64,000 nt of DNA from Lota lota. Taxonomy: Eukaryota; Chordata; Actinopteri; Gadiformes; Lotidae. How positions within the stretch are numbered: the stretch's first letter is position 1; every line of letters begins with the position of its first letter. The notes under the pieces are model-generated. The model did not search any database. It was not told where the DNA came from and worked only from the letters and a program-made list of their open reading frames with translations. Of this stretch, positions 1,633 through 63,819 are shown in pieces. Made by a program: the position numbers and the translations under genes. The DNA lies in NCBI GenBank assembly GCA_026745465.1, contig JACYXH010000104.1:124001-188000 (forward strand). Reading direction: 5' to 3'.

Positions 1633-4600
1633 CACTTTGTGCAAGTGATGGATACTATTATTAAATTAATGAGTTCAGTGAATAATTCTGAAAAATCATT
1701 TCCTTTTTAAGTTTTTACGTCTGGAGCCGTTGCTTGTTATTGTATCGCTGTCAGGACGACATCCGCTGTGTGAGGAAGGAGGCGGAGAGAACCGCAGCCG
1801 AGAACCGAGAGATGACAGCCAAGATGGACGAGCTGCAGCTGTTCAACGACGCCTCGGACAAGGAGCTGAGGAAACTCAGGACAAGCAAGCAGGTGCGCTG
1901 ACCTGCTCCCCTGATGCTCCAAGTCAAAATCTCTCTCCTGCCATTTGTTTAACGCCTACGGCAGCAGCCGCTACGTAATGGTCCATTTCCACCTCTGCTT
2001 CCCGAGAACTTAACGCACAAGTAACATGTAAAAAGGATAATACATTTATCAGCTACAAAATAGCACGGCTTAAAACCAAACCGAAAGCACAACATTGCTG
2101 AGATGGAGGTGACAGCTGGTCACTGAACGAGCGATTTACCGCAGTTGTTGCAAAACACAAAACACACACATGATCGACATGGCAAAAAGGCAAATGTCTA
2201 AACGTGTGCGGGGTCCTTTCTCTCGGCGCCAGGACGCCATGGTCGAGGAAAACATCCTGAAGCTGGAGCTGCGGCGCCTGAGGGATCTGCTGTACAGCAG
2301 GGCGGACGGCGTGCTGTCCCAGGAGAAGAGGAGGCTGGAGCTCCAGACGGCCATGAGGGAGCGGGAGGAGGAGATCAGAGTCCACCGGGAGATGCTGGGC
2401 AAGGAGGTGAAGATCGCCCAGCAGGAGAGACAGGAGCTAAGGTGAGAACATGCGATGCAATTTACGGTGACCTTTCCTATTTATTCATTTAGCAGACACT
2501 TTCACCCTTCGTGACTTGCTGTTAGTTGTTGTTCTTTTGAACAGACGGTAGCAATTACCATGCCTAGGTGGGTGCCACACTCCACCTAGGTGGCTTTTAC
2601 TGGGCTCCTCCAGACACAAGGACGCAGGGTGGTGGTGTTGAAAGCCGGTTTATTGTAGAGTTTGATAGACAACGATACATGAGATGGTGATTCATGCCGC
2701 CATGTAGGAGAGCTTCCTGAGTGTATTGTGATGGCTGGTTAACCTGTGTGCATTGATTAGTCCATGCACAACAGGTGTGCAGCCCCACCTAGCCCCAGAG
2801 TCCAAACAGTCTGACTCGGGCCGGGTGAGACTGCTTAAACCAGCCATCAGCCACACACACACTCCACACAGACGTTGCGGTTTGAAATGAGAACCCTTCG
2901 GCTGGGAGTCAGAACACCCTAGCGCTGTACTCAGGCTCTCATGGCATCGCTCCTAATGTTAGTGACTCCTGGTTTCTAGACAGGATGACAGAACATAATG
3001 CTGTGTCTCTGATTGTGTGTCAGTTTGGAGGTGCACGAGAGGCTGTCCAAGATCGACATAATGAGGAAGCGCTACGAGGTCTTGACCATCTCCATGGCGA
3101 CACCCGAGGGAGAAGAGGACAAATCGCAGGCTTACTACGTCATAAAGGTCAGGGTTCTAGCTGCACCATCTCATCACAACCAGAGATACGCTCAATGAGA
3201 TGGGTTCTCTGGCTGTACGTGAGCGGGTGCAACTAGATGGACTTTCCCCGTTACTTATGCCCATGATGCTTTGCTTTTAACCGAGACCTAGACCTTCACA
3301 GCTAACCTCGTAAGTCTCTAACCCTCTGTAATGGTAAATTTGAGGCATTATAGTATCTGAACATAACCATCTGTACCCTAATCCCTAAAGTTGACCATAA
3401 CTAAAGATGGATACATTTCGGTATTAGATTACAATTGATTCATAAATGTAGATATTATAATTCTTAAACTATCATCTACCAACTACCATCCCTTACAAAC
3501 TCTGGTTACTTTATACCCCCCCCCTTCCCCCCAGGCTGCCCAGGAGAAGGAGGAGCTCCGGCAGAAAGGGGACAACCTGGACGCCAAGATCCGCAAGATG
3601 GAGACGGAGATCCGAGCGCTGGACAACACCATCCAGCTGGTCAACAACTGCAACTCGTCCTACCGCAAGTCCTTCCACAAAGTCCCCGAGTCCAGTGAGT
3701 TAAGATGAATGACTGTGCCGGCGTCGAATGGTCTTCTCCTGGCGATCATCTAGAATCAGCTACTACGTCAGGGCTTCGATTTAGCCGCGCTCCGTCTGCT
3801 TCAGTGACCGGGCTGAGCAGTTGGTCCGGTGAGGTGTAGCAACCTGTATGTCCACCCTACTACCGGATGAAATCTTAATAGAAAAGGGTTTTCCCGTCAA
3901 CATACACCTTTCGAGGTTTATCCAGTTTTCCACAGCCGTATATTGACAGAAGATCAAACGATTTGTGCCACATTTACATTTCAGTCACTCTTTCACCCAA
4001 AGCAGCTCACAGTGATTTTGTTTTAGATACCACTGAGTCATTATGGAGCAGGTAGATGTGTTGGGGCATCTTGGTCAAGGACGCCTATACTGCGGACGTT
4101 CAGGGTTTGAACCTAGACCCTTTCGCCTGGGAGTCAAAACACCCTAACACCACTAAGACTATCCTCCGCAGCAGTGGTCTCCGCCTGCTACGTTTGCAGG
4201 CAGTGAAAGATGCACACTATGAATGGACTTTACCTATTTTTTTACCTTTTTTCTTCACCGAATATTCTGATATAAGTTTGGAAACCTAAAGAATATCCGA
4301 AGCTTGAAATGATGTATTCGGGCCAGCCCAAGTGTAGACCCAGTGTGGTGTGGTGTAGACCCTGTATGACTCTGGTGTGTAGACCCAGTGTGACTCAGTA
4401 TGGTGTGGTGTAGACCCAGTGTGACTGGTGTGGTGTAGACCCAGCGTGGTGTAGACCCAGTGTGGCTCAGTGTGGTGTGGTGTAGACCCTGTGTGACTCT
4501 GGTGTGGTGTAGACCCAGTGTGACTCAGTATGGTGTGGTGTAGACCCAGTGTGACTGGTGTGGTGTAGACCCAGTGTGGTGTAGACTGTCGAAGCAAATT

Positions 4601-7600
4601 ATACAACTCGTGGCTGGGCTGATTCAAAAGGCTAAGACAAATGGATATCCGTAGTTATTTTATTTCATACGCTGCAGCATACAAAAGACGCAGTTTCAAA
4701 GGCAACTCCACACTGGGCAGAGTTCTCGAGAAAAGGCGCGCTGAGCAAAGGAAGGAAGGTCTTTTGTAGGGTAAAACAAACAATCATTTAAACGTAACAC
4801 TAGATGGCGCCCTGTACCATCTATAACTGGTTCAATGCACAGCTAAAGCCAGACCCCTGGTTGTAGCTTAACATATATGGCGCAATCTAGGATTTATGGC
4901 GGGTCCTCTGTGCGGTCAGGGCAACAGGCACATAATAGGTGAGAGAAACTTGCTCTGGAGTTTCTCACATAGAACAAAGCACCATACAGGAATGCAAGGA
5001 ACAGGCAACTGTGAGGAGGTAGATAATGAAAAGAAAACAAATAGGACACTATAGCGTGCTCACAACAACTTGAGTGCTTAAACCAAACCAACTAGTTTAG
5101 GCGAGTTAACTTTGGAATAGGGCCTGAGGTCATTTTCCACCACAAGACCCAGTATGACTCTGGTGTGGTGTAGACCCAGTGTGGTGTGGACCTAGTGTGA
5201 CTCAGTATGGTGTAGACCCAGTATGACTCTGGTGTGGTGTAGACCCAGTGTGGTGTGGACTCAGTGTGGTGTGGACTTAGTGTGGTGTGGTGTAGACCCA
5301 GTGTGACTCAGTGTGGTGTAGACCCAGTGTGACTCAGTGTGGTGTAGACTCAGTGTGGTGTAGACCCAGTGTGACTCAGTGTGATGTAGACCCAGTGTGA
5401 CTCAGTGTGGTGTAGACCCAGTGTGACTCAGTGTGGTGTAGACTCAGTGTGGTGTAGACCCAGTGTGGCTCAGTGTGATGTGGTGTAGACCCAGTGTGAT
5501 GTGGTGTAGACCCAGTGTGACTCAGTGTGATGTGGTGTAGACCCAGTGTGATGTAGTGTAGACCCAGTGTGACTCAGTGTGATGTGGTGTAGACCCAGTG
5601 TGATGTGGTGTAGACCCAGTGTGACTCAGTGTGGTGTAGACCCAGTGTGACTCAGTGTGGTGTAGACTCAGTGTGGTGTAGACCCAGTGTGGCTCAGTGT
5701 GATGTGGTGTAGACCCAGTGTGATGTGGTGTAGACCCAGTGTGACTCAGTGTGATGTGGTGTAGACCCAGTGTGATGTGGTGTAGACCCAGTGTGACTCA
5801 GTGTGGTGTAGACCCAGTGTAACTCAGTGTGGTGTAGACTCAGTGTGGTGTAGACCCAGTGTGGCTCAGTGTGGTGTAGACTCAGTGTGGTGTAGACCCA
5901 GTGTGACTCAGTGTGGTGTAGACTCAGTGTGGTGTAGACCCAGTGTGGCTCAGTGTGGTGTAGACTCAGTGTGGTGTAGACCCAGTGTGACTCAGTGTGA
6001 TGTGGTGTAGACCCAGTGTGATGTGGTGTAGACCCAGTGTGACTCAGTGTGATGTGGTGTAGACCCAGTGTGATGTGGTGTAGACCCAGTGTGACTCAGT
6101 GTGGTGTAGACCCAGTGTGACTCAGTGTGGTGTAGACTCAGTGTAGTGTAGACCCAGTGTGGCTCAGTGTGATGTGGTGTAGACCCAGTGTGATGTGGTG
6201 TAGACCCAGTGTGACTCAGTGTGATGTGGTGTAGACCCAGTGTGATGTGGTGTAGACCCAGTGTGACTCAGTGTGGTGTAGACCCAGTGTAACTCAGTGT
6301 GGTGTAGACTCAGTGTGGTGTAGACCCAGTGTGGCTCAGTGTGGTGTAGACTCAGTGTGGTGTAGACCCAGTGTGACTCAGTGTGGTGTAGACCCAGTGT
6401 GGCTCAGTGTGGTGTAGACTCAGTGTGACTCAGTGTGGTGTAGACCCAGTGTGGCTCAGTGTGGTGTAGACCCAGTGTGACTCAGTGTGGTGTGGTGTAG
6501 ACCCAGTGTGATGTGGTGTAGACCCAGTGTGACTCAGTGTGGTGTAGACCCAGTGTGACTCAGTGTGGTGTAGACCCAGTGTGACTCAGTGTGGTGTGGT
6601 CCAGGCCCGGAGCAGGAGGAGAAGGCCAGGCTGGAAGAGCAGCTGCGGGCGGCGGAAGAGAAACACCGGTACAGGAGGAGGCAGATCAGAGAGCTCCAGG
6701 ACGACATTCAGGTTGGAACGCCTCCCCCACATACTTCAACATGTCTTTTTTTCATTAGGTGAGTGCTGCAGGCAGCGCTCAAACATTTTTATTCTTACCG
6801 TGCGTTCACACCAAAAGCGAAGGTGCCGCGCCATTCGAGCCATCCGCGAATAGATGCGAAAACATTGCATCTATTCGCGGATGGCTGGAATGGCGCGGCG
6901 CCAACAACGAGGTTCACGCGAATTTCGCTATTCTACTCCCGCAAACGACGCAAATTCACGTGTTCGCTCGAGTTGAAATATTTTAACGAATTTCGCTTGA
7001 TGCTGAATCACTCGCCCGAGTAACACTAGTAGAACATTTGCTTTGCTTTTGGTGTGAACGCACCTTTAGGCTTTATTCTTTCTTTCATATGCTCTATAAA
7101 CTTTGGGACCCTACTCCATCCACAGTTTTTCACATAGACTCTTTTCCAATTTTGAAATGTTCATCTTTGCTTGAAATCGCGTGCTAGGATTCATATATTT
7201 GATACTTAAAATATTTTAACTTTTAAAATATTATATTTTCTTCCCATTCTCTGAAACTTCAACTTCTTCAGACTTCACAACTCTGTGATTTTTTTTAACC
7301 TTTAAACTTGGTTCAAACATTGAACAAATCATCACATTTAGATCTTTACACCGATCAAAACACATTTAGATCTTTACACCAATCAAAACACATTTAGATC
7401 TTTACACCGATCAAAACACATTTAGATCTTTACACCAATCAAAACACATTTAGATCTTTACACCAATCAAAACACATTTAGATCTTTACACCAATCAAAA
7501 CACATTTAGATCTTTACACCAATCAAAACACATTTAGATCTTTACACCAATCAAAACAGATTTGATGTAATCTACACTTTTTGAGATGCAACACTTCCCG

Positions 7601-10600
7601 CTTTGTATATTTTCGCTTAGTCTCATTGACTTCCATTGAGCTTTGTTTAGAGTGTGATGACGTCGCCCTGCTTTACATGTTTACAGCTGAACATTTCGGA
7701 CATTGTGGGGCCTTACAACGTCAATATTTAACCTAGTAACACAATGTAAAGATTAAACTGTTACGGTTCTTCTTTCTTTCAAAATGATTAATAGATTGGA
7801 AATATACTTGTTGAGTATGGGGCGTTTGTGTTTGGCGACCCTCGTTTATATTACAATGGGACCTATTGGAGACTCTCCTTTCTTGACAGTCTCGTCTTGC
7901 CATTTTTAAACTCACAATTAAACGGACATACTTGAAGGGACAGACACATGTTGGACATCCACATGTTCGTCTACTTCTAGTGAGCATGACCATGTCAACA
8001 TTTTAGAAGTCAGAGTTATAGTTCTTGAGAATGAGTCTACGGTTTGAGGCTGGGTTCTTCATACATTGCTGGTTGTCTGCTTCCGGTAGGAGCTAAATGT
8101 TAATGTAATAAAGAGATATATTTTTCACGTCATGCTATCAACACAAACAGTATGTCATAAACTGAGACTACACAGTCCAACAATATAAGCCTTCTCATTC
8201 TGTAACCTAATCTCGACAAACTAGAACCCTTTTTCTTTTAAATTGCAACCACAAATGATTTCTTACCTTATGTTATTATCATACCAATACTACTGTGTAT
8301 AGCACTAATACTGTCACAGCCAGTGGGAGCAGGGCAGCAGGAACAAAAGGGATAGGACCCAAAGGCAGACGAGAACTCTGGGAAATGTAACAAAAAGGCT
8401 TCTAATAAAGACAACTCTGAAATCTCAGTTCCGTGAACCAGCATAGAAAATACTAATAACTAGAGAGCACCAATGACAAGGGGACATGACAAATATAACG
8501 AACCGACAAGGGAACAAAGGAAGTGACCTGGTGTATATAGGGAGAGACTAATGGGGGAATAAGGTGCAGGTGGGAAGATTGACTGACTGGGGACAAGGGG
8601 AAAAGTCTAAGGACATCTGGTGGACAGGTGGAGAATGGAAACTAAAAAACAGTCAGACTATGACAAATACTGTATCATACTAATACTTCTCATCATACCA
8701 ATACTACTTTGTATAGTACTAATACTGTATCATACTAATACTTCTCATCATACCAATACTACTTTGTATAGTACTAATACTGTATCATACTAATATGTAT
8801 CATACAAATACGATGTATTGTACTATTGTATCATACGAATACTACTTATACCAATACTACTATGTATCATACTTTTACTACTTATCATACTAATACTACT
8901 AATTATAAGTTGTCATACCAATACTACCAATACTACCATGGGGTACCAGGGGTTAAATACTGCAAAAAGATGATGAACCGCAGGTGTGTAGACCGAGCAG
9001 GTGGAGTGGAATGCAAGAACTGGATAGCTGGAGTCTGGCCACGCCCACACACATACACACACAGACACACACACACACACAGACAAATGGAGACAAACAG
9101 GGGAGAGAGACTGGCCCGAGCTAGGTAGGAATGGAGAGCGTGACACTAGGCCTAGGTTCAAACAGTTTCACTTCAGAATAGTATAACTTTTGATTTGACA
9201 TTATTGAAATGGTTTGTATGTTTATACTGCTAGGAATACTCCATTCGGACTCAAGTACAGAACTCTGTTCAAATATTTCACTTGAGTTCAGCTTTTCAAC
9301 TTTTCTATACGTCTTAAACTGTGTAGCTTTATAAAATATATTTTCAACCTCACTTTACACTACAGCACTCACCGCATTTTCTACATTAAATGCATTTTAT
9401 AGTTATTAGATATGAACCTACAAGAACTTGCCTTAAACAGCTTTTCAACCATTTTTAAGACATTGAGGGCTTAGCCCAGAATCTTAATAAATAAGAAAAT
9501 ATTGATCTCTGTGGGTGGTACAGTCAAGAGCCGAAAGTACGAGTGCCTATTCTGAAACACATAGACACACCTGCAGTATTTTGCTAAATAATCGAGACGA
9601 CTCAAAATCGTTTCCTATTCTTAAGTGAGTAGGCCTATGCTTTGACAAACTGGAAATATATAATTTTCTTCAAGAATGGGCTAGTGAAGCCATGGGTATT
9701 AGATTTTTTTTAAATGCAGTTCTTGAAAATGTATTTTTCAGTTCTTGAAAATGCAGGACCCTATTTGCCAGACTCTGTACTTGTATGTACTTGAGATCAG
9801 GTTGGTTAGGCTTGTCCCAAACAATAATCACATCGTCACTAGTACACTGAACTGCATTGACAATCTCACTGTCACTGTCACTTGTCATCTACATCCTTCC
9901 TAGCATGTGGACCTGTACCAATCTCCTTCGGAAAAAAACCATTATAAATGTAGCTACCCTGTATAATGCCATTCAGTGGACTCTTATCATCAAAAGCACC
10001 TTACAGTATATGAGCTCAAAACGTAGTCTACTACACTGTTATAACTACTAAACCATTCTAAGACCCCACCTGTGGCCCTGTTCCTCCACCTGCCTCTCTT
10101 GCCTCTGTCCTGCTAGCACCTACTGGTTGTATAACATCCTTCTCCTAATAAAAAGATAAGTTGATGCATAAAGAGAAAATATATATGCTAGCTTTGCTAG
10201 TTTGCTGAATATTACTATAATGAAATCAACCTACTATCTCAATGTGTCCAATGTAGCTATGACAATAACATTGTATATTGTATAAAAAAAGTATATATAT
10301 ATATATATTCTGATCTGTTATCAACGCATGTGGTCTTAGTTTACTTACAGGTCCGCACAAATAAGTCCTTATCTTAATTTTTCTTCTCTTGGGAGGCATT
10401 TTTAACTGTATATAACCTAGTGAACAAGATGGATGGCAATTTCAAAACAAACGTTAACTTAGCTAGCCGGTGGGTAACCGGTAACGTTAAGTCATTGTGG
10501 CCCTTGTGGACAACGATATACATTAGGCAACAGAGCTGTGCTCCATTTGTTGAGGTTATCTGTTGACAATATTTATAATATGATGTTAATGTTTAAGATA

Positions 10601-13600
10601 TTGCTTTCCTAATCACCTGCTCCAAGGAAAGGGCTGCGTGGCACTACTGCACGTTTGTGATCAAATTGTGCCGCCGTTTATTAGAATTGTTTTGGCTGAG
10701 TTGAGAGTTAACCCTTTGTGGATGAGTGGACGAAATTGCATAAATGACATAAGACGTTCTTCAGATTGATTACAACTATTGATAGGGACATTCCGATCGT
10801 TTCTTGACATTGGAAGGGACGTGACCTACGCCAATGACCTCAATCAACATGGCTGTGATGGTGCCTCATATGGTGTTGTTTTTAGGTCTGCATTTCACAA
10901 CTGGTTTTGCATCCAGACAAGCTGCCTCTGTCCCTTCGCTGATCCTGTGCTAGAATGATTCTTATCTGGTTCGCTTTTGTTGTCTTTGAAAAGTCAGTAA
11001 AGAGTACAACGATTGTGTTACTCGCACTCAAAGGTCAGCCCATACTTCCTGAGCCACCTATTCAGCTGCTGTTGTGTTGTGAGCCTGTGCACTCTGAACA
11101 GTGTGTGTGTGTGTGTGTGTGTGTTTTTATTTAACTGGGTGTGTGTGTGCGCGTGCGTGTGTTCTATCACCAGGGAATGAACAAAACCATGGAGATGCTG
11201 AGTCAGGAGGAGCTAGCAGAGCGTGAGCGGGCACAAGACGTTCATTCACACATGGCTCAGCTGAACAAGGAAGTGGATTCCCAGAAGGAAAAACTCGATC
11301 GAGTCACTAAACAGGTCTGCTGTTTAGCCCCACCTTTGTTGTTGCACGGCCTCAGTAAAGCTATCATGGAAGGATATTGGACTCTTTAAATCTGTGTATC
11401 ATATTCACATATCAGACAAACACACACACACACACACATGCCTGTGTTTGTGCGCGTGCATGCTTGTGCGTTTTCTTTGTGTCGCCTCAAGTTGTCTCTT
11501 CGTGTTACTCACCCCCAGTGCTCCAAGTTGACCAGAGAGATCCGGTCGGCCAATAAGAGCGGGGCGGGGCGGAGCTTCGAGGAGCGGGACATGGAGCTGA
11601 GGGAAATGAGGGACTTTAACAGGAGCGTCAACCGCATGCTGCTGGAGGTGATGGAGGACCAGCCCCACCTCCGGGCCTCCATCCAGGAGTACTTTCTGCA
11701 GGTAGCGCCACAGCGGCAGCATCTGGTTCTCACGGCATGTGTCGTTGTTCTTTAGTTTGTGTTTCATGAATGAGTATGTGAAAGAGATTCAATCATTCAT
11801 TCATAAGTCATTATTAAGTATTATGGTGTATGAAAAGGTTTGAGCAGATCGCAGCTCCGATTGAAAAGGTAAAGGAACAGAGTGGGTTCCACCATTTGCT
11901 TTCAACAGTGGCTAGGCAACAAGATGCCCCAACATTAGATCTAAGAAGCTGATCGTCATGGCGATAAGACCTCTGGGTGTTTTAATCCAGTGTTCTGTCC
12001 CCATCAGGCCAACCTGTCCCTGCCCTCCCCCTCCTCCACCCCCACCAGCCGCCAGAGCTCCAAGGCCAGCTCGGCTCGCAGCTCAGTCTCCCTCAGGTGA
12101 GACTCCAGCACCACCTCATCATTACCTCCCCCTGCACCACCTCATCATTACCTCCCCCTGCACCACCTCCCCCTGCACCACTTCTGCACCACCTCATCAT
12201 TACCTCATGCACCACCTCATCGTTATTGCACCACTTTGCACCACCTCATCATTACCTTGCACCACCTCATCATTACCTCCACCTGCACCACCTCATCATT
12301 ACCTCCACCTGCACCACCTCATCATTACCTCCACCTGCACCACCACATCATTACCTCCCCCAGCACCACTTCCCCCTGCACCACCTCATCATTACCTCCT
12401 CCTGCACCACCTCCCCCTGCACCACCTCATCATTACCTCCTCCTGCACCACCTCATCATTACCTCCTCCTGCACCATCTCCCCCTGCACCACCTCATCAT
12501 TACCTCCTCCTGCACCACCTCCCCCTGCACCACCTCATCATTACCTCCTCCTGCACCACCTCCCCCTGCACCACTCATCATTACTCCTCCTGCACCACCT
12601 CATCATTACCTCCCCTGCACCACTCCCCCTGCACCACCTCATCATTACCTCCACCTGCACCACCACATCAACCCCTCACTTACCTCCCCCTGCAGCACCT
12701 CATCATTACCTCCACCTGCACCACCTCATCATTACCTCCCCCTGCACCACCTCATCATTACCTCCACCTGCACCACCTCATCATTACCTCCACCTGCACC
12801 ACCTCATCATTACCTCCCCCTGCACCACTTCCCCCTGCACCACCTCATCATTACCTCCCCCTGCACCACCTCATCATTACCTCCCCCTGCACCACCTCAT
12901 CATTACCTCCACCTGCACCACCACATCATTACCTCCCCCAGCACCACCTCATCATTACCTCCACCTGCACCACCTCATCATTACCTCCCCCTGCACCACC
13001 TCATCATTACCTCCTCCTGCACCACCTCATCATTACCTCCCCTGCACCACCTCATCATTACCTCCCCCTGCACCACCTCATCATTACCTCCCCCTGCACC
13101 ACCTCATCATTACCTCCCCCTGCACCACCACATCATTACCTCCCCCAGCACCACCTCATCATTACCTCCACCTGCACCACCTCATCATTACCTCCCCCTG
13201 CACCACCTCATCATTACCTCCCCCTGCACCACCTCATCATTACCTCCCCCTGCACCACCTCATCATTACCTCCCCCTGCACCACCTCATCATTACCTCCC
13301 CCTGCACCACCTCATCATTACCTCCCCCTGCACCACCACATCATTACCTTTTCATCATTTGCATAAAGTTAACTGAAGTTCAACTTTTGTCCCGCCCCTT
13401 CAACGCCCCGCAGTCCCCCGCCTTCCCACAATCCCTCGCCCCACGCGATAGCGCGTCCAATACAAAGTGAAAGGCAGGCGTTTGGTGGGGCCGGCCGGTG
13501 ACAGTGTTCATGCGACGGCTCGGCCACACCAAACGCATAGTCTCGATGAGACAACAGACAATGACAAGCACGAATGAGAGATGTTTATAAACGCTGCGCG

Positions 13601-19613: not shown

Positions 19614-22600
19614 AAGGCTGGGTTTTCCATGTAAAACAAACCGTTCATTCTGCCGATGAGTTTAGGCCTCTTGTCCTCAGGCAGGTAAATGGCCACATAG
19701 TAGACGGGGATCCCAGAGAGAGCTATCCCTATCCCTATGAGGGAGTTAATGGTGTCACTGTAAAGTGGAACCACCACCAGGAACAGGCTACACAGACAGT
19801 AGACGATGGGGAAGACCAGAGACAGCTGGTGGGGAGGGATAGGAAAAACAGGCACTGGTAAGGCTGGGTTCACTCTGGCTACCAAAAACATCCATGTGTG
19901 TGTGTTTGTCTTTCTGTCCTATCCTAAATGGTCTATCGTCCACCCCTATGTCCCTCCATCCATCAGTTTTATGTCTTACTCAGACCAGTCTGTCTTTGCT
20001 ATGTCTGTCTGCCTTTCTGTCTGTCCTACCTTGACGGGTCTGTGTATGTCTGTTTGTCTGTCTACCTGCCCTCCTGTCAGCCTGTCTGTCCTACCTTGAT
20101 GGGTCTCTGTCTGTCTGTCTGTCTCTCTGCCAGCCTGTCTGTCTATCTGTAAGTCTGTATGTCTGTCTGTCCTACCTTGACAGGTCTGTCTTCTGTCTGT
20201 CCTACCTTGACGGGTCTGTGTCTGTCTGTCTGTCTACCTGCCTTGACGGGTCTGTGTATGTCTGTCCGTCTACCTGCCTTCCTGTCTGTCTATCTTCTAA
20301 TCTCTCTACCTGTAAGGCTGTATGTCTGTCTGTCCTACCTTGACGGGTCTGTGTCTGAGCGGCTGGGTGTAGCGCAGGTAGATTAGGCCAGCGACGGAGA
20401 GGCCTACGTAGAGCCAGTAGCTGAAGCTGAAGTAGTTGATGAGCTGGAAGACGTCCTCCACGCACAGGAAGATCAGGCCCATCAAGCCCTGCAAACCCCA
20501 ACACGTTTACCCCATAGAAACACACCGACATCCGAATCCACTACCATACACGATCACATGGGAAGTGTCCATGTTGAACCTTGTATTTCATTTGACCTCG
20601 TTTCTTCTGTGGGTGCCCCCGCATAAACACACACACGCACACACCCACACACACACAAATAGTTTCCAATTTTTATATTCTATTCTTATTTTTATCTTCA
20701 CCTGATTTGCACTGCCTATTTTTCTGTTCTCACACCTGAATGGACCTATATATAATCACATCTAAGTTGATGTTATAGAAGGCTAGTATAAGTGCAAAAC
20801 TCTGTGGTGTTCTCATTCAGGGGTGCAAATTCTGTGTGACAGGTGGGGGGGGGGGGGGGGGGGGGGGGGAACCAATGGCAAGGGTTGGCAGTGACTGACA
20901 AATAAGGCCTTTCATTAATGCATTGTTTACAATTGTAAACAATGTACGAGTTTTTAAGGGACTGCAGGCACCGTGACTCATGTTGTCACGGTGAGGACTC
21001 TCTCTCTCCCTGTCTCTCTCTTGCTCTCCCTCTTTCCTCTCTCCCTCTCTTTCCCTCTCTCTCTCGAAAAAGAGAAAAGGTATGAACATTTGTATTGAGT
21101 TGGCTATTAATGTTAAATAATTCGATCTGTAACTACAGTGTGATAATACTGAAATATTTCTTTATCATCGCCTTATTTAGCTTTCCTTTCGTCTGACCTG
21201 CTATATTATACGCTGCCCATATTTGAGTGTCTATGTGAATGGTTTTGACGGCAAAGACCCCATGTTGAAAATGTGTAAAATGACATGCAATATATTACAT
21301 TTCACAGTATAGTAATTATTGTTTGTGATATTCACATTTTTGATTACTGAATGTGCTTTTGCCATACCCTGCATGTACCAAATCCAAAACTGCACATTTC
21401 GCCACCTTGCAATAAAAACATTGAAACATTGGTAAAAATGGATCAATGCTCACATTGAACAGCAGTGCAGGAATCGGTGTGTATCGCTCCATGTGGATCA
21501 GACTCAGACTGTTTGGAAGGTGGCCCTCTCTGGCCCCGACGAAAAACAACCTGGATTACAACATTACATTAGCGTCATCATCGCAGAGTTATCACAGCTA
21601 TAGATCCTCAAATGAATGCATGACTACACATGTGTTTACTACAGTATAGCCTAATGACACATTGATTCTGTGTAAACAGATAAAGGCATCAATAAATATG
21701 ATCGTTAAACATTCGCATGGTGATCACCGCGAGGCAGCGATGACGGACGCGTTGAGTCCTCCGTAGCAGGACATGGCCACCGAAACTGGAATGATCCAAC
21801 TGAAAGGGCCCAAGACGGCATTCCCAAAAGTCTGCAGGTCGGATACAAAAGAGCCGTTACACTAAAGATCAGGGTGGCTCAGCATTTGTTTATGCTAGCA
21901 AGGAGATTTTGGAACATTAATTTGAGAAATAATAAATTTTAAAGTAAAAACACGCATCTTTAATTTGCACTGGGTCATCTATCTTTAGAAAGAGGCCAAG
22001 GTGTGTTTTTTTCTTTCAGGGTTACAAATGCTTTATGAAGTTTAACGGTTCTAAGTAAAGCCGTGCTAAATATAGCCTAGCAACATACCACAGCCACCGC
22101 ATCGCTAGCCAACAGGGACGGCATGTCCAAGACCACATAATACGCCACATTGGTCAACAGGTAGATTATGGTCACTATGGGCATAGAGACAGCAATGGCC
22201 AGTGGCAGGTTCCTGAAACCAAACAATGACTACTGAAAAGAATTACCATTAACAGTTTTCAAAAGCCAACTGCAACAGTTTATCCAGACAAAATTATTTC
22301 ATTTATTGGCCTTGTGTTTTGAAAGTCATATGCTGGGAATGGAAAAAGGCTATACAATAAAATAAATTATTGAATGTGGCTTTTCTGCTATCAGTTGTAA
22401 AATTAGCAGTCAGGTAAGCCATATACTACACTTAACAAAGGCTTATAATACTATGGGTAAAAATACGGAACTTTATTTATCATGTCAGCACCTATTCAGT
22501 AGAACACAGTTTTAGGTTTCACATCATTCTCCAACATATGTAATCAAACCCACAGCTCATTCGGAAATTACTCATCTGTTTTTTTGACAGTTAAAAACAG

Positions 22601-27817: not shown

Positions 27818-38936
<11,119 letters not shown>

Positions 38937-48395: not shown

Positions 48396-48530
48396 TACAT
48401 ACACAGACAGACAGCTAGATGGCTAGATGGACTGGTAGACAGATTACTAGACCGGTTGACGAATAGACAGCTAGATGAACAGACAGACAGACAGACAGCT
48501 AGATCGGCTGACTGATAAACAGCTAGACGA

Positions 48531-48566
<36 letters not shown>

Positions 48567-48662
48567 CTAGACCGGCTGTGACAGACAGCTAGATGGACTG
48601 ACAGACAGACAGACAGACAGACAGACAGCTAGACGGACTGACAGACAGACAGACAGTTAGAT
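48396..48662. repeat. GACA-type (Bkm-like) satellite tract
   Basis: Runs of (ACAG)n alternating with AGCTAGATGG/AGCTAGACGG words, e.g. 48602-48660. It lies just downstream of agrp2. Confidence 0.85.

Positions 48663-53945: not shown

Positions 53946-63819
<9,874 letters not shown>

Follow-up and report, generated by a model that had tools for sequence, protein, structure and literature searches.

In humans, the minisatellite of IFI6 (6-16, G1P3) reportedly supplies multiple splice donor sites, according to the title of Turri 1995, and a 31-bp VNTR of CBS is said, in the title of Lievers 2001, to be associated with reduced activity. As given in the relevant sections of the published accounts, downstream repeat units of IFI6 serve as donors (PMC4526556), the CBS repeat, c.1444_1467+7(16_21), comprises by its coordinates coding bases plus 7 intron bases (PMC2630376), and a 25-bp VNTR in intron 18 of ABCA7 contains the exon 18 donor, with one retained unit resulting in a frameshift and a premature stop or decay (PMC5954066). 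Within human segmental duplications, internal tandem repeats at exon-intron boundaries alter gene structure and can activate cryptic sites (PMC2812944). The system most like the one described here is that of the amphioxus 'mirages', minisatellites that span exon-intron boundaries in Adh3 and in the globins BflGb6 and BflGb9; these involve either side of the exon, have many units with AG/GT signals, are length-unstable and are possibly general in the lineage, and regular splicing seems, from the Adh3 data and from RT-PCR of the globins, to be undisturbed by AG/GT mirages (PMC3087553).

Among fishes, the codfishes are described as having an extreme density of tandem repeats (PMC5894186), and in the text of a paper on Atlantic cod repeats (PMC5241972) the terms 'splice', 'splicing' and 'exon' do not occur at the start of any word. 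Among the papers found for SLC7A6 with tandem repeat and splice, none concerns such an array by title, although a description may still exist in papers beyond this coverage. We also considered myostatin-2 of the gilthead seabream as a fish precedent, but set it aside, as the portion of its description used here gives intron duplications with predicted extra sites and no exon-edge array.

We analysed a stretch of 64,000 nucleotides of Lota lota DNA (the window), in which an exon end and its splice donor are present in tandem within the following intron (Table 1). The array is real and had been correctly described by an earlier note on this DNA, and it is a further case of the known exon-edge repeats. 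The host gene is likely to be slc7a6, judging from the predicted protein. The 111-residue stretch encoded by the exon at 20488-20339 and by the following exon, which begins at 19825 (LSLVFPIV...), has y+L amino acid transporter 2 (SLC7A6) as its top solved-structure match with an E value of 2.8e-46; thus, the name slc7a6 used in the earlier note agrees with the best match, but is not proven, since the match of the same two-exon stretch to y+LAT1 is nearly equal (E 8.4e-46). On the minus strand, the 3' end of the exon at 20339 reads CACAGACCCGTCAAG/GTAGGACAG (exon/intron), and the repeated word is the final 14-19 nt of this exon. The exon junction RPVK/LS(L) aligns with RPLK/LS(V) of human y+LAT1 and y+LAT2, and this match implies an ancestral coding origin of the exon word, with the intron copies derived from it. 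The exon-to-intron direction of copying rests on conservation of the protein.

Table 1. Coordinates of the slc7a6-like exon edge and its copies in the window, and of the other exon-edge repeats in the same assembly (a slash marks the exon/intron boundary)
Feature	Position	Strand	Description
Coding exon, slc7a6-like gene	20339..20488	(-)	150 nt, 50 codons, ...LRHRPVK; from translation and homology to y+LAT1/2
Authentic donor AAG/GTAGGA	20333..20341	(-)	Score 8.28 (donor matrix); U1 duplex -9.2 kcal/mol
Host intron	19826..20338	(-)	513 nt
In-frame TAG	20306..20308	(-)	Reached on use of any of the five distal sites and on intron retention
Copy 1	20234..20256	(-)	Exon word CACAGACCCGTCAAG intact; donor now GC, CAAG/GCAGG
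Copy 2	20192..20224	(-)	33/33 nt identical to 20357-20325, the real exon end and donor; offset 133
Copy 3	20138..20189	(-)	48/52 nt identical to 20352-20301; offset 163
Copy 4	20082..20113	(-)	30/32 nt identical to the real exon end, donor intact; offset 244
Copy 5	20016..20045	(-)	30/30 nt identical to the real exon end, donor intact; offset 309
L025, Asc-1/LAT2-like gene, homologous exon end and donor	1620-2405 (G000:C659)		57-bp unit, 13.8 copies, 99% matching, 14 donors
L028, y+LAT-like paralogue, exon 6 end and GTGAGT donor	6743-7201 (G000:C35)		33-bp unit with poly-C, 14 donor words
L036, exon 2 acceptor and exon start	3816-4041 (G000:C659)		38-bp unit, 5.9 copies
L035, exon 7 acceptor	1541-1672 (G000:C705)		67-bp duplication across the acceptor, 2 copies
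L046 and L049, sugar-transporter introns	(G000:C427, C412)		Minisatellite starting at the donor itself, like human ABCA7

The exon-intron boundary with its donor has been copied in tandem, with 14-19 exon bases and the donor present five times in the intron, four of the donors intact and one changed to GC, and the array, bounded as 20016-20338, takes up about 63% of the intron. The earlier note had given the real exon end as 20339 and five equivalents at 20242, 20206, 20176, 20095 and 20030, with the donor kept in four; as last exonic bases these coordinates are right, and positions +1 to +6 are indeed unchanged at 20206, 20176, 20095 and 20030. Its naming of GACA repeats as the spacers is broadly right, although these are degenerate GACA-like sequence, and its view of the exon end as the repeat seed is supported by the conserved coding word (RPVK/LS), which among the matches listed for the assembly is found only here. 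Positions +7 to +14 are unchanged in three of the four copies with an intact donor, the copy at 20095 having one change. In an ungapped self-comparison, the first copy is 20/21 identical to the real exon end over 20257-20237, and the identity of the third copy across 20352-20301 means that 38 nt of intron past the exon end were copied too. Upstream, exon bases -40 to -20 were not copied (11-15 of 20 mismatched). Duplication of the exon is ruled out, since only 14-19 of its bases were copied.

A 24-base word, searched for with up to 3 mismatches, occurs at five places in the window (three identical, the real one included, and two with 2 differences), compared to 0 matches in 100 dinucleotide-preserving shuffles of the window; the site at 20242 (CAAG/GCAGG) lies outside this 3-mismatch threshold. 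When the 575-Mb assembly was searched for this pattern at up to 2 mismatches, the same five places and nothing else were among the matches listed, although such a search can skip simple repeats, its counts may be lower bounds, and absence from them does not prove rarity.

The array does not have one fixed period throughout, as a regular minisatellite would: the spacings between successive exon-end equivalents are 97, 36, 30, 81 and 65, and Tandem Repeats Finder returned partial rows only, with periods of 4, 20, 30, 36, 65 and 81. The self-comparison matches to the real exon end start inside the GACA-like CAGACACAGAC (20357 to 20352). Offsets of 176, 111, 36 and 65 tie the intron copies to one another, and thus several of the copies are probably secondary; the nested blocks (offsets 163, 176, 111 and 36) likewise suggest that the array may have grown stepwise. 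Elsewhere in the window, there are two minisatellites of 26 bp, at 5168-6597 (about 55 copies) and at 12108-13349 (about 48 copies), and minus-strand open frames at 28610-29498 that, by eye, we take to resemble a Tc1-type transposase in pieces.

The fish array shares with the amphioxus mirages the presence of tandem copies across a true exon-intron boundary, as far as the mirages are described in the sections cited here. It differs from them in its units, which are about 150-160 bp in the amphioxus globins and 10-72 bp in Adh3, where splicing in amphioxus was checked by RT-PCR (PMC3087553); in the fish, 14-19 exon bases are separated by irregular, GACA-like spacers. The CBS repeat is similar in that its unit, by the published coordinates, is an exon edge with a donor, but it is a regular 31-bp unit, polymorphic at 16-21 copies, rather than five irregularly spaced copies (PMC2630376). 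The ABCA7 VNTR also includes an exon donor, but its unit, as described in the account cited, begins at the GT and is without exon bases, with 23.7 units in the reference (PMC5954066). The IFI6 minisatellite likewise provides extra donors, some of which are used (PMC4526556), but there, as far as the account goes, the used units yield coding isoforms. Finally, minisatellite expansion across exon-intron boundaries, as in the fish array, has been described in human paralogues, but those paralogues are recent primate ones and the repeats treated in the cited portion are contained in exons (PMC2812944). The view that a coding exon edge as minisatellite seed is unusual is thus not upheld, given the amphioxus mirages, the human donor or exon-end repeats in IFI6, CBS and ABCA7 and four other slc7 exon edges in this genome.

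These four edges are among those of a survey of slc7 paralogues in the same assembly, extended by 20 further stretches, in which exons were called by tblastn with slc7a6 and L025 (the Asc-1/LAT2-like gene with an array) as queries, such that exons that these queries did not reach are missing. The 88 exons called gave 77 donor-side and 77 acceptor-side ends that could be tested, and an end was counted as recurrent if a 20-base word across the junction was found again within 2.5 kb with at most 1 mismatch. Five of the 154 slc7-family exon ends recur (3/77 donor, 2/77 acceptor), a count that includes the index case by design and L025, which had prompted the survey; without both it is 3/152. A separate scan of slc7 edges at up to 3 mismatches gave six ends, including the exon 5 donor of L035 at 3 mismatches; the test word of the five-end scan was mirrored on minus-strand loci, and we use the count of five. 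At the exon end homologous to that of the index case, exact recurrence is seen in 2 of 12 (slc7a6 and an Asc-1/LAT2-like gene, L023, the one with the 57-bp unit in L025). The edge survey found no recurrence at the exon donor of L032 (the same exon as in L019).

As with the mirages, several genes of one lineage are affected, on both the donor and the acceptor side. The four other slc7 edges share this layout, each with an unrelated unit, and one is only a duplication of two copies. The unit of the Asc-1/LAT2-like gene is 19 codons without a stop, and the frame is open through all units, such that each copy included through a distal donor would lengthen the protein by 19 residues. In the y+LAT-like paralogue (L028), the second of the 14 donor words has lost its GT, and distal use would lead to one common stop, which for the nearest usable copy lies 32 nt ahead of the junction and for the others at least 60 nt. 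The AG has been lost in two of the six copies of the array at the exon 2 acceptor (L036), and this exon probably belongs to the same gene as L025, in an adjoining stretch; words similar to this array are also present upstream in L036, at 2175-2327 and 3276. In the stretch with the two-copy acceptor duplication, there is in addition a 22-bp array of 54 copies at 8502-9700 (G000:C705) that begins a few bases past an apparent exon donor.

Across the 274 kb examined, minisatellites with a period of at least 12 account for 9.8% of the sequence; in single stretches their share ranges from 0.1% to 50%. Of 1500 non-exonic positions drawn at random from these gene spans, 181 recur with at most 1 mismatch; the total includes 145 positions without a testable word, and some uncalled exons may be among the 1500. 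Within exon interiors, the corresponding number is 3 of 400 (positions drawn with replacement). Exon edges are thus under-represented compared to non-exonic positions (5/154 versus 181/1500, Fisher p 0.0004) and over-represented compared to exon interiors (5/154 versus 3/400, Fisher p 0.04), p-values that are rough, since the Fisher tests assume independent positions and positions in one array are not independent. Edges that are rarer than non-exonic positions and commoner than exon interiors are what one would expect if the arrays were a by-product that selection had filtered. Arrays would, on this evidence, arise everywhere, and those that touch exons would survive when only the intron grows.

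Two other transporter families were sampled. For SLC6, the donor sides of 20 of the 118 matches listed were taken as 341-nt stretches, 18 of them with a convincing donor; 0 of these 18 donors recur at up to 1 mismatch and 1 (L059) at up to 3 mismatches. In L059 (1-160, G000:C531), an SLC6-family exon end is followed by (TAGGAGC)8.6, which starts in the donor, and about 119 nt downstream the exon end is present once more, diverged and followed by a donor. For sugar transporters, 4 of the 10 matches listed were examined, and in two of these four an array starts at the donor (L046, 3 mismatches; L049, 2 mismatches); on the acceptor side, no tested AG recurred (best 6 mismatches). Both samples agree that exon edges can be involved, but they are too small for a rate.

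We consider it highly probable that the slc7a6 array is a minisatellite anchored at an exon edge, of the amphioxus mirage kind and nearly neutral; it is most likely tolerated rather than selected. With its CAGACACAGAC..., the exon end is similar to a (GACA)n run that lies just within the intron, and slippage driven by this microhomology, or unequal exchange between the exon end and the GACA run, may have put the last 14-19 exonic bases and the donor into the intron. Later duplications within the array would have brought the number of copies to five, as its block structure suggests. Purifying selection on the protein would hold the exon at one copy, such that the array could grow only into the intron. 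Most splicing probably still takes place at the authentic site, with exon definition as an aid; an mRNA spliced at any distal site would carry a premature stop and then be degraded.

The consequences of distal use can be predicted in some detail. With a donor matrix, the score is 8.28 at the authentic site and at each of the four intact copies, and all five have equal U1 pairing, although identical 9-mers at five donors indicate equal intrinsic strength only. The array contains four weaker CAG/GTAGA(C/G) sites as well, at 20310, 20274, 20238 and 20066, which are absent from the earlier note. Use of the distal sites would extend the exon by 97, 133, 163, 244 or 309 nt, and by frame analysis all five extensions add 10 codons and then reach the common TAG at 20308-20306, so that the early stop proposed for distal sites holds for every one of them. 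This TAG precedes the new junction by 64 to 276 nt. By the usual distance rule, an mRNA becomes a decay target when a stop is premature and lies over 50-55 nt ahead of a junction, and in the predicted frames of all five sites the stop is farther away than this; the distal-site products are thus predicted decay targets. Within positions +1 to +6 there are 0 changes in four copies and 2 in the fifth, compared to changes at 4 of 75 exon-word positions. Four intact donors of five may point to constraint, but these numbers are too low to carry the argument, and we rejected selection for donor retention.

A tentative alternative, to which we give some credence, is a modest and constant use of distal donors that is not regulated, with output falling as copy number rises, an effect that is reported or suggested in the case of human ABCA7 and CBS repeat length. 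It is favoured by the equal intrinsic strength of the five donors and by the reported tie between the CBS 31-bp VNTR and reduced activity (title of Lievers 2001). Splicing of ABCA7 is, in addition, affected by the length of its VNTR (PMC5954066), but the amphioxus RT-PCR points the opposite way (PMC3087553). Such a leak is compatible with the nearly neutral, exon-anchored minisatellite that we favour, and differs from it in the size of the effect.

The earlier note had proposed instead a possible decay-linked switch, in which U1 would be divided among five equal donors and regulated distal use would lead to decay of the slc7a6 mRNA and so set the level of the transporter. Four donors identical to the real one and a TAG at least 64 nt upstream of the junction in all five distal isoforms would fit such a switch, as would the parallel with ABCA7, where a donor-containing VNTR with one retained unit gives a frameshift (PMC5954066). 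However, almost any read-through into an intron is expected to meet a stop, and the arrays differ in their outcome, with a stop in slc7a6 and L028 but an open frame with 19 more residues per copy in L025. Moreover, exon edges are not enriched over random non-exonic positions, being below their rate, and regular splicing is apparently undisturbed by the amphioxus mirages, in the data cited (PMC3087553). These observations do not sustain the proposal, and we regard regulated switching as very unlikely.

That the copies were stacked by a faulty assembly is more improbable still: assemblies are error-prone at repeats, but the copies differ in their spacers and substitutions, and hence are not one sequence stacked, and a second contig with the word is absent among the matches listed for the assembly. 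Least credible of all is that a dispersed satellite or transposon with the word was inserted beside the exon and gave rise to the exon end, since, although other ACAG/GACA arrays are present in the window (48479-48656 and 58949-59055) and an assembly pattern search may skip simple repeats and give lower bounds, the 24-base word (up to 2 mismatches) is listed in this intron only and the exon word codes for conserved residues.

The slc7a6 array as an exon-anchored minisatellite repeats, taken singly, a known pattern, and its wider value is in the set around it; the recurrence of exon-edge arrays in the genome is a more interesting lead than the single case. We also advance, as a suggestion that we think rather unlikely to hold in full, that exon edges are a recurrent minisatellite seed in this fish genome, as has been proposed for amphioxus, at about 3% of the tested slc7-family exon ends, such that many genes would have their donors and acceptors multiplied, by up to 14-fold. 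Decay isoforms that depend on copy number would then come from some arrays (slc7a6 and L028); in others (L025) the frame would stay open, and each copy could add 19 residues to a transporter loop, with isoforms of different length arising from a single allele. One gene family in one genome offers donor arrays of 6, 14 and 14 sites, the last of them with one site that lacks its GT, and acceptor repeats of 6 and 2 copies; paralogues whose homologous exon end is unaffected can serve as controls. The arrays thus form a natural vertebrate series for the choice of the spliceosome among identical tandem sites and for the cost of such repeats, and if alleles differ in copy number, these loci are candidates for expression variation.
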